Shown here piece by piece: positions 53,770 through 60,392 of a DNA stretch of 64,000 bases. The position numbers and the translations under genes are program-made. How positions within the stretch are numbered: position 1 is the stretch's first letter; every line of letters starts with the position of its first letter. The stretch is from an uncultured Roseovarius sp. Its GTDB lineage: Bacteria > Pseudomonadota > Alphaproteobacteria > Rhodobacterales > Rhodobacteraceae. The stretch covers positions 744,001 to 808,000 of the forward strand of contig CANMOU010000001.1 of the NCBI GenBank assembly GCA_947499555.1. The letters are read 5' to 3'. The notes under the pieces are model-generated. The model was not told the DNA's origin. It worked only from the letters and a program-made list of their open reading frames with translations, and did no database searches.

Positions 53770-53836
53770 GACGAAAAACCTTTTGCATGCCCGAAGGATG
53801 GCCTTATCTATGGGGTGAATGAGAAAAGGGAAAGCC

Positions 53837-54289
53837 ATGAGCGGCGAAACCGACCTGATCAAGCTTTATTCGGCCCGGATTCTGGAGCTTGCGGCAGATA
53901 TTCCGCATCATGGGCGGCTCGACACGCCCGATGTGAGCGTGAAGCGCCGTGCGCCGCTCTGCGGCTCGACCGTGACCGTCGATCTCAAGACGGACGGACA
54001 TGTGATCACTGACTATGCCGCCGAGGTCAAAGCCTGCGCTCTGGGTCAGGCGGCGGCCAGCGTTGTGGGCGGTGCTATCATTGGCTGCACGCTGGATCAG
54101 GTCATTGAGGCGCGCGATGCGCTGAAGGCAATGTTAAAATCCGATGGGCCAACCCCGCCAGCCCCCTTTGACGGGCTCGAGGTCTTGCGCCCGGCGCGGG
54201 ATTACAAGAACCGCCACGCTTCGATCCTGCTGGCACTGGATGCAGCAACCGAAGCGATGCAGGACGCCCGCGCCTCAGCCTGCAGTTAA
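53837..54289 (+). CDS. IscU/NifU-like iron-sulfur scaffold protein with a missing third Cys
   Basis: The 150-residue protein shares the IscU core: [10 protein letters not shown] and [10 protein letters not shown] give two of the three cluster ligands. The third Cys expected in the helix region (normally HCS) is replaced by Ala in [12 protein letters not shown], while the His is kept. It may be a specialised carrier or a weak scaffold. AAGGG lies six bases before the ATG. It is divergent from hisI, and no isc or suf genes are nearby. Confidence 0.75.
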
Positions 54290-54321
54290 GCGCCGAATTT
54301 TTTCCACAAAAATTTTCCCGC

Positions 54322-54358
54322 AAAAAAAAACCGCCGCACGCTTGTTAGGCGGCGGCGG
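54322..54358 (-). terminator. Strong terminator downstream of the SOS small protein
   Basis: On the minus strand, the stem CCGCCGC/GCGGCGG is followed by nine T residues. It lies about 140 bases beyond the stop of the 40-residue protein, so the mRNA has an unusually long 3' tail with two CU-rich patches. Confidence 0.85.
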
Positions 54359-54496
54359 AAGGAATGCGGTGTCCGGTGCGGGCTCAGCAGGAGAGGCAGG
54401 CAACTCTGAGCAACGAGGCAGTATCACGCAGGCGTCGAAAGGGGACAGGAGACGCGGGCGCTTGACGCACACGGGACGGTCGCAGGCAGGAACAGT

Positions 54497-54619
54497 TTAC
54501 AGAAGACCCGGAAGGTAGAGACCCCCCACAAGTGTCACCATCAACGCGGCAGCACCAATAAAATCCCCCAACAGGGTTTCGCGAGACTCTCTGGCAGCAA
54601 GTTTGATTTGGTTCAGCAT
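54497..54619 (-). CDS. SOS-regulated 40-residue membrane protein (SidA/TisB-like candidate)
   Basis: A 40-codon gene begins at ATG 54619 with GAGAG eight bases upstream. Residues 1-18 are polar and amphipathic (MLNQIKLAARESRETLLG). Residues about 18-40 form one strongly hydrophobic helix (DFIGAAALMVTLVGGLYL, ending PGLL). Four GTTC half-sites at LexA spacing stand 57-92 bases upstream. Size, topology and control match small SOS membrane proteins such as Caulobacter SidA (division inhibitor) and E. coli TisB (membrane toxin); no sequence match to either is claimed. It lies just downstream of recG. Confidence 0.7.
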   Translation of the reverse strand: MLNQIKLAARESRETLLGDFIGAAALMVTLVGGLYLPGLL

Positions 54620-54675
54620 GGCGGTCACTCTCGATCTTTGTTCTTTTTGTTGCTTATTTGTTCTCATTTCAGCGT

Positions 54676-54711
54676 GAACTTGTAAAGAACTTTTTAAGAA
54701 CATTTGTGAAC
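54676..54711 (-). promoter_or_regulatory. Tandem LexA boxes (four GTTC half-sites)
   Basis: On the plus strand GAAC occurs at 54676, 54687, 54698 and 54708. The first three are exactly 11 apart, giving two overlapping GAAC-N7-GAAC boxes; the fourth follows with a six-base spacer. GTTC-N7-GTTC is the LexA target known from Rhodobacter and other alphaproteobacteria. TTCACA and TTTACA within the cluster could be promoter elements, so LexA would block RNA polymerase directly. Confidence 0.8.
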
Positions 54712-54804
54712 TTTTTCGGAAGATCTGATCTAACCTATTGAAAAATTTATCAACTTTTTAGAACATTCGTTAATGACACGGACCCACGACATTAACCGGT
54801 CCTC

Positions 54805-59839
<5,035 letters not shown>

Positions 59840-59946: not shown

Positions 59947-60210
59947 TCATCGCTGTCTAGTGGCTTTTAATCTTTCAATTCCGCCGTCATGCAGCGCCTT
60001 TCTCCATTCCTCGATTTCCTCTTCACTCAGCGCGTACATTTCCATCGCATCTTTGGATGAAATCAAACCGTGCTCAATCGCGCTTACAACCTTAAGTTTA
60101 CGCGATGCCACCCATCTCTTGGTCTCCATGTCCGGCAGGTCCGCGCGCGTCAGCACCTCACCGCCCGGAAGGGTTACAGCACGAGGGCCATTTACTTTCT
60201 TCAGATACAT
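59947..60210 (-). CDS. sciP: SciP-type CtrA inhibitor (DUF1153 protein)
   Basis: The 87-residue DUF1153 protein is a helix-turn-helix-like factor. SciP binds CtrA and blocks its transcription activation in Caulobacter. The sequence has [20 protein letters not shown] and the conserved [22 protein letters not shown], in part. I place the start at the ATG (60210). It lies upstream of ctrA on the same strand, with about 107 bases between. The function is inferred from family membership and location. Confidence 0.9.
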
Positions 60211-60392
60211 CACAATCACCCATCAAGACGGCACCGGAACAGGATCGGTCAGCGGTCTTAACAAGGCCTCAAGCGCGGGCCGGAAAGTGCTTAGGATTTG
60301 TCATAACCTCAGCGCAGCCCTTGGGACCTTTCACAGGGTTAACTTTGTCGCAAAAACCCTTATATAGGCGCTTCGATGTCCTGGAGGCACAG

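Follow-up and report, generated by a model that had tools for sequence, protein, structure and literature searches.

A putative LexA-controlled unit downstream of recG combines a predicted small membrane peptide with a conserved structured 3'UTR RNA

Introduction

LexA bound over a promoter represses transcription until it is removed by RecA-driven cleavage. Small proteins with a single helix often bind membrane proteins and tune them, and other small proteins, such as CcaF1 (DUF1127), bind RNA. In SgrS/SgrT and other dual-function RNAs, a regulatory RNA and a short peptide, about 40 residues long, come from one transcript. Among the closest described counterparts of the locus reported here is SidA, a 29-residue inner-membrane protein that is the primary SOS division inhibitor of Caulobacter and binds FtsW (PMC4211646). 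The same paper describes DidA, a second small transmembrane division inhibitor of Caulobacter, which is induced by DNA damage in an SOS-independent, DriD-driven manner (PMC4211646). For Rhodobacter sphaeroides, PMC8625941 reports several 3'UTR RNAs matured by RNase E, including CcsR1-4 behind ccaF1.

The unit that we describe resembles SidA of Caulobacter crescentus in being a putative SOS-controlled gene for a very small, presumably inner-membrane protein in an alphaproteobacterium (PMC4211646). It differs from SidA in that the peptide is 40 residues long, lies downstream of recG and has a structured 3'UTR RNA attached, and in that convincing profile matches were confined to the family of the window among 240 genomes of the class. 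With DidA it shares the small size and a putative membrane helix, but it carries LexA-type sites instead (PMC4211646). In TisB/IstR-1 and DinQ/AgrB of E. coli, SOS-induced membrane peptides are under antisense RNA control; TisB and DinQ are known toxins, whereas the membrane segment of the present peptide is mostly uncharged and no antitoxin was identified. In ccaF1-CcsR1-4 of R. sphaeroides, a member of the same order, the 3'UTR of a small protein gene is processed into regulatory RNAs, and an mRNA for a hypothetical protein with a 3'UTR-derived sRNA, as proposed here, is also found in RSP_7527-UdsC of R. sphaeroides (PMC8625941, PMC9779115). In contrast to the present unit, ccaF1-CcsR1-4 is induced by oxidative stress and its small protein binds RNA. 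UdsC was set aside as the same RNA, being described as 67 nt long with an RpoHII-dependent promoter (PMC9779115, PMC8625941). The unit is ordinary in kind, as a putative SOS small membrane protein, and unusual in its breadth, its fixed position and its covarying RNA. SgrS/SgrT differ from it in regulation, order of parts and sequence.

Results and Discussion

Organization of the locus

The window is the whole stretch of 64,000 nt that was analysed, and all coordinates of the 54,xxx type refer to it. The features of the unit are collected in Table 1. An initial annotation of this DNA had described a 40-codon gene with one hydrophobic helix, a ribosome site and a nine-T terminator about 140 bases past the stop codon. 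All three were recovered: the gene is present with a predicted helix, an SD-like GAGAG could be located, and a terminator stem followed by the T run begins 138 bases beyond the stop codon. That annotation had missed the inverted LexA-type site and the structured RNA that fills positions 54324-54492. A gene with a NifU_N domain (53819-54289, plus strand) lies downstream and is convergent with the short gene. A reading of the short gene as nothing other than the tail of a recG operon was rejected, because an operator and a terminator belong to the gene itself and are conserved.

Further along the window, a response regulator (59123-59839, minus strand) in which Response_reg and Trans_reg_C were recognised, and which we take to be CtrA-like, is adjoined by a 90-codon frame (59947-60219, minus strand) that presumably resembles SciP/DUF1153. 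The SOS unit lies only a few genes away from these apparent cell-cycle regulators.

Table 1. Position of the unit's features in the window. Promoter, operator and RNA assignments are predictions.
Feature	Position	Strand	Remarks
recG (DNA helicase)	54805..56895	-	Pfam RecG_wedge, DEAD, Helicase_C, RecG_dom3_C; directly upstream of the short gene, same strand
Operator array, four GTTC half-sites	54676..54711	-	GAAC on the plus strand at 54708, 54698, 54687 and 54676; overlaps the -35-like element
-35-like element TTTACA	54681..54686	-	Column conservation over 132 loci; putative promoter
Second, inverted LexA-type site, GAAC-N7-CAAC	54649..54663	-	GTTG-N7-GTTC on the plus strand
Ribosome-binding-like GAGAG	54628..54632	-	8 bases before the ATG; read from the sequence
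40-codon gene including stop	54497..54619	-	Codons 54500-54619, stop 54497-54499; peptide MLNQIKLAARESRETLLGDFIGAAALMVTLVGGLYLPGLL, single hydrophobic helix
Structured 3'UTR RNA	54324..54492	-	Closed by a long stem; inner hairpins carry CUGYC-type loops; ends in the terminator hairpin
Intrinsic terminator	54322..54358	-	Stem 54331-54358, then nine T at 54322-54330

Distribution and genomic conservation

With the peptide sequence alone as query, 168 of the 295 genomes of the window's family were matched, and a profile (A1) built from 30 relatives matched 253 of the 295 at E ≤ 0.01. Among 240 genomes drawn from the class, the profile gave 23 matches at E ≤ 0.1; the only convincing ones came from three genomes of the window's own family (E below 1e-13), and the remaining 20 had E-values above 0.004 and lay mostly inside long frames. 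By these searches, the peptide family is lineage-specific. We read 137 loci, one per genome (30 from the peptide search, 7 from the profile search and 100 fetched additionally), which represent better-scoring matches rather than a random draw from the 253. In 133 of them the gene is immediately preceded by recG in the same orientation, and 105 showed a nifU-like gene running towards it; the peptide was 40 residues long in 112 and 36 to 42 residues long in 136. The initial annotation had proposed to look for conservation of the peptide together with LexA boxes in related genomes; with profile matches in 253/295 family genomes and the box present at 135/137 loci, its original observation holds and is far from chance.

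Twenty of the 42 family genomes without a profile match were examined, and 16 of these yielded a full recG. In 11 of the 16, recG is directly followed by a 36-50-codon frame whose end is hydrophobic, together with one or more LexA-type boxes. The D..G motif of the peptide is kept in seven of these 11 diverged frames, and one genome (G001) has E for D. The frames of G093, G058 and G090 diverge further from the family, and the case for their homology is made by position and operator. In the other five of the 16 genomes, namely G054, G017, G109, G056 and G008 (L217, L219, L220, L221 and L224), recG is followed neither by a short hydrophobic frame nor by a box of the LexA type; these represent natural losses or relocation.

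When 84,980 species were scanned for exact matches to the promoter core AAAGTTCTTTAC-N14-16-TGAGAACAAA, at least 119 stretches were returned. Among the matches listed, 117 carry the peptide and 117 carry recG; in the first 80, the peptide was found in 79 and recG in 78. Three of the four misses are loci that end early, and the fourth (L340) is a borderline peptide match that passed the threshold once and failed in a larger search space. We take the genera named in the titles of the first 80 records to be Rhodobacterales, the remaining titles giving unspecified Rhodobacterales, Rhodobacteraceae or Alphaproteobacteria. A search of plasmid records with the peptide gave no match, and a scan of viral contigs with RecG found no relative, the latter being uninformative. 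A mobile or phage origin is unlikely and was dismissed, because plasmid records and PHROGs gave no match and the gene occupies a fixed site after recG.

Putative operator and promoter

On the minus strand, the half-sites of the operator array combine into a pair of overlapping GTTC-N7-GTTC boxes, with the fourth half-site spaced at N6, and the positions that had originally been assigned to the four GAAC sequences on the plus strand are exact. The widely conserved core of the array is GTTC-N6-GTTC-N7-GTTC. The profile of the promoter region, taken from 132 loci, is GTTC-N6-GTTC-N7-GTTCTTTACA followed by GAGAACAAA, and the distance from the last GTTC to GAAC is 23 bases in 110 loci. The -10 element may be situated near GAGAACAAA, its position being uncertain. 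A GTTC-N7-GTTC box is present within 160 bases upstream of the peptide gene in 135 of the 137 loci, a triple array with N5 or N6 followed by N7 in 125, the inverted GAAC-N7-[CG]AAC site in 124 and a loosely defined SD-like motif in 127. A full GAAC-N7-GAAC inverted site was also found in several divergent genomes without a profile match. The conservation of operator and promoter-like elements across loci supports the earlier view that the gene has its own promoter, as predicted by comparison.

The triple GTTC-N7-GTTC-N7-GTTC occurs once in the window when both strands are searched. It should be noted that the bare LexA box is enriched neither in the window (3 observed vs 1.9 expected in shuffles) nor genome-wide (98 vs 159 for a reversed control pattern). 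As the bare box is common, the array is significant because it is conserved, and the case rests on comparison. An imperfect second copy of the operator motif, AATGTTCTAAAAAGTTG, is located at 54751-54767 (minus strand), about 40 bases upstream of the main array, and is possibly a decayed duplicate.

Probable LexA control

The window's own genome has lexA at C1:364642-365334, and a lexA match was obtained in 28 of the 31 genomes searched. The three in which this search did not find lexA are G008, G029 and G033, the last of which (74% complete) still has the short frame and a box. Within 150 bases upstream of lexA, GTTC-N7-GTTC was present in 24 of the 26 loci for which the start was found, and the reversed control in none. 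Five of these 26 lexA promoters (L248, L249, L253, L262 and L265) have overlapping boxes at an 11-base step, the GAAC-N7-GAAC boxes forming the same kind of array as the operator of the short gene. The initial annotation had taken GTTC-N7-GTTC to be the LexA site of Rhodobacter-type alphaproteobacteria, and the occurrence of the same box at 135/137 peptide loci and before lexA in 24/26 supports this. LexA control is therefore well supported by comparison, and we regard it as highly probable that the unit belongs to the LexA regulon, with induction by DNA damage as the prediction.

The array could alternatively be bound by another regulator, in which case the unit would stand outside the SOS response. 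Some sequence features point in that direction: both boxes of the unit (GTTCTTAAAAAGTTC and GTTCTTTACAAGTTC) are more A-rich than the boxes of its own lexA and uvrA-like genes and lack their TGTTC ending, so that the base before the second half-site differs. Nevertheless, the direct as well as the inverted sites fit the GTTC-N7-GTTC pattern that precedes lexA itself, and five lexA promoters share the 11-base step, which makes a regulator other than LexA very improbable.

In the same genome the box also precedes the uvrA-like gene (L204), which we take to be uvrA from its first residues. Another box, GAACAAAACAAGAAC, is found at position 1172 of L207 (own genome, C2:193800-196200), several hundred bases before a frame that, judged from its residues, presumably encodes an EAL-domain (c-di-GMP) protein. 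This box may be compared with the LexA site at pde2 that PMC6473078 reports for Dinoroseobacter.

The peptide

D19, G22 and L34 are invariant in the 136 profile-matched peptides, invariance applying to peptides selected in this way, and P37 is kept in 134, L26 and L30 in 131 each and T15 in 129. Conservation has a 100-degree periodicity (moment 0.49; p = 0.001, 5000 permutations), and the most conserved positions (11, 15, 19, 22, 26, 30, 34, 36 and 37) fall at 80-240 degrees of the helical wheel. Entropies at the three codon positions were 1.14, 0.72 and 1.55 over 112 sequences, which is the coding type. While the initial annotation had named a synonymous-to-nonsynonymous ratio near one as a sign of an untranslated frame, pN/pS was 0.22/0.52 = 0.42 in the 73 nearest pairs, with synonymous sites partly saturated. 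Both measures indicate that the gene is translated and under purifying selection. AlphaFold predicted from the single sequence one helix over residues 2-39 (mean pLDDT 88). The C-terminal half of the 40 residues is hydrophobic and mostly uncharged, and the peptide is presumably located in the membrane. From these comparisons, it is very probable that the gene makes a translated membrane peptide. The earlier proposal of a small membrane-type peptide thus stands, on the comparative evidence of conservation within the family and a hydrophobic helix. Database searches gave no matches at E ≤ 1 in NCBIfam or PHROGs, with three peptides each, or in the PDB, and nothing of note in Pfam for 30 members (two lone matches at E 0.14 and 0.2).

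The helix of TisB is charged and amphipathic. If our peptide were a type I toxin of the TisB or DinQ kind, it would depolarise the membrane and lead to dormancy, restrained by an antisense RNA or by the structure of its own mRNA. SOS-type control, the size and the hydrophobic helix would all suit a toxin, the structured tail could be regulatory, and DinQ is an SOS-regulated toxic peptide with a single transmembrane segment. In contrast to TisB, a charged residue in residues 20-39 or the equivalent was seen in just 14 of the 136 peptides, and in 122 this 20-residue stretch has none. Moreover, the stretch from recG to the gene is short in most loci and therefore leaves little room for a divergent antitoxin gene, and to our knowledge, family-wide conservation at one chromosomal place would be unusual for a toxin-antitoxin pair. 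A toxin of this kind consequently appears improbable. Because the helix is mostly uncharged with a strongly conserved face, we favour a predicted partner-binding peptide over a self-assembling pore.

A conserved helix face implies a partner without revealing its identity, and the peptide might bind a membrane protein outside the division complex, for example a protease such as FtsH, a transporter, or a respiratory or envelope-stress protein, and tune it during DNA damage. What speaks against this is the precedent of SidA, an SOS-controlled small membrane protein of known target in alphaproteobacteria, that target being division (PMC4211646). We consider such another partner unlikely, although a real contender. 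Division itself as the target of the peptide, which is argued by analogy with SidA, is a tentative assignment that falls somewhat short of even odds.

The structured 3'UTR RNA

The RNA spans about 170 bases. With the terminator removed, the tails are more stably folded than their dinucleotide shuffles, the mean z being -2.69 and 70% of the values lying below -2; for the copy in the window the gain is only modest (z = -1.05). At least 8 pairs between the two ends were present in 92% of tails vs 47% of shuffles. RNAalifold recovered only the terminator from a plain MAFFT alignment of 122 tails, and the terminator plus the closing stem from 15 selected tails. An alignment of 31 sequences (A2) was discounted, its closing stem being misaligned.

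For a curated alignment, 20 tails were chosen because they share a motif on the 3' side of the closing stem and, after exclusion of L019, L067 and L072 by eye, 17 were aligned with MAFFT (A3). Paired cells amounted to 90.1% (83.3 in shuffles), 17 pairs were changed on both sides (9.4 in shuffles) and covariation was 0.271 (0.159 in shuffles); none of 500 shuffles reached any of these values, and slid controls stayed at or below 0.10, but A3 leans towards structure because its seeds were motif-picked and three tails were removed by eye. A covariance model built from A3, from which the second and third inner hairpins were left out, recovered 80 of 91 additional sources at E ≤ 1e-8 and missed 11. 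In the resulting alignment A4, which holds these 80 non-seed sequences and none of the 17 seeds, and includes two short members (L070, 77 bases; L165, 88), 388 cells were changed on both sides vs 101.8 in shuffles, with a covariation of 0.377 vs 0.119 in shuffles and 0.05-0.07 in slid controls; since A4 was fitted to the model these counts are inflated, although we judge not by this much. The terminator stem was paired in 98.3% of cells over the 80 sequences.

The own tail matches the model with 52.4 bits (E 1.2e-14), as the single match in the genome. Of the 295 family genomes, whole-genome searches matched 222 at E ≤ 0.01 and 196 at E < 1e-8. Among 237 genomes from outside the family, 24 matched at E ≤ 0.01, the best with 30.7 bits; these were taken as noise, 21 of the 26 matches spanning 105 bases or less. 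No Rfam match at E ≤ 1 was obtained with 4227 models in window positions 54200-54900, and six related loci gave a lone match to Ysr141 (E 0.15), far below the gathering score and away from the RNA. A terminator of the expected type was seen in 127 of the 137 loci. The ten others divide into five that match the RNA model (L084, L095, L097, L103 and L157) and five that fail it (L090, L120, L122, L141 and L154), of which L154 is masked, the tail of L141 is similar by eye and those of L090 and L122 are not.

Altogether, these comparisons make it almost certain that the 3' tail holds a conserved structured RNA, and this strongly covarying RNA appears to be a new structured family. It is the most novel part of the unit. 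The initial annotation had suggested that the tail may hold a CU-rich regulatory RNA; a structured RNA with C/U-rich loops is indeed predicted, and its regulatory role is plausible. A conserved predicted structure ending in an intrinsic terminator is what is expected of a 3'UTR-derived regulatory RNA.

Over 127 tails, the loop motifs CTGCCT and CTGTCC occur in 206 and 182 copies. Eight of their anagrams occur in 1-17 copies each, and anagrams that overlap the motifs are more frequent (CCTGTC 158, TGCCTC 56). The motifs are unpaired with a mean probability of 0.76, vs 0.37 for the rest of the RNA and 0.62 (overlapping one), 0.43, 0.41 and 0.29 for anagram sets. The repetition of such motifs in loops suggests a partner in trans, which could be mRNA starts, another sRNA or a protein; whether the RNA acts in trans we rate as an even chance. 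A complement search with one perfect 11-mer in the own genome gave 4 matches vs 2 in the control and no convincing target. One 11-mer complement, L397, falls within a hairpin about 50 bases ahead of a possible start.

The peptide and the RNA together

An RNA match at E ≤ 0.01 without a peptide profile match was seen in six genomes (G023, G077, G083, G125, G155 and G201). The loci of four (G125, G077, G083 and G023) were read, and all have a diverged hydrophobic frame before the RNA. Conversely, L090 and L122 retain the peptide and have apparently lost the structured RNA, so that the two parts are not strictly tied. Considering these unequal losses, the RNA is a second part that is strongly retained, but the peptide is the more constant of the two.

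These observations bear on the idea that the unit chiefly makes the RNA, with the short frame serving for the most part as a leader that determines how the RNA is processed or how stable it is. The very strong covariation would be in line with this, as would the position of the first YTGCC motif, whose median distance from the stop codon is 7 bases over 133 loci. It is hard to reconcile with residues invariant over 136 peptides under purifying selection, with a peptide that persists in L090 and L122, and with the hydrophobic frame in front of the RNA in all four genomes read. We regard the RNA as the main product as quite doubtful.

Proposed mechanism and significance

The best explanation as a whole, to which we assign a probability of roughly 50%, is a LexA-repressed single-gene SOS unit whose one transcript would provide a SidA-like peptide and a 3'UTR RNA. 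DNA damage would lead to LexA cleavage and induction of the unit. The peptide would insert into the inner membrane, and its conserved face (R11, T15, D19, G22, L26, L30, L34 and P37) would dock on a partner in the membrane. The division complex is the likeliest such partner, and division would then be delayed, as it is by SidA in Caulobacter. This division step is the weakest link of the mechanism. The RNA, either whole or cut off near the stop codon, would present its repeated CUGCCU/CUGUCC loops, which may base-pair with mRNAs or hold an RNA-binding protein. A broader version, in which the unit would be an ancestral damage checkpoint of the family whose peptide stops the division machine while the multi-loop 3'UTR RNA simultaneously rewires translation, is speculative and on balance unlikely. 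We know of no SOS precedent for a peptide and a translation-rewiring RNA from one transcript.

A literature search, with most subscription journals outside its reach, recognised no paper on the short gene or its RNA, and the word 'recG' is absent from the texts of PMC6473078, PMC8625941 and PMC5107571. No named SOS division inhibitor was met in this literature for the Roseobacter group, Rhodobacter or Paracoccus. A widespread peptide whose gene has LexA-type boxes and keeps one place in the chromosome is a direct candidate for halting division after DNA damage in the large family to which these belong. If true, the attached RNA would in addition tie post-transcriptional control to the SOS response.
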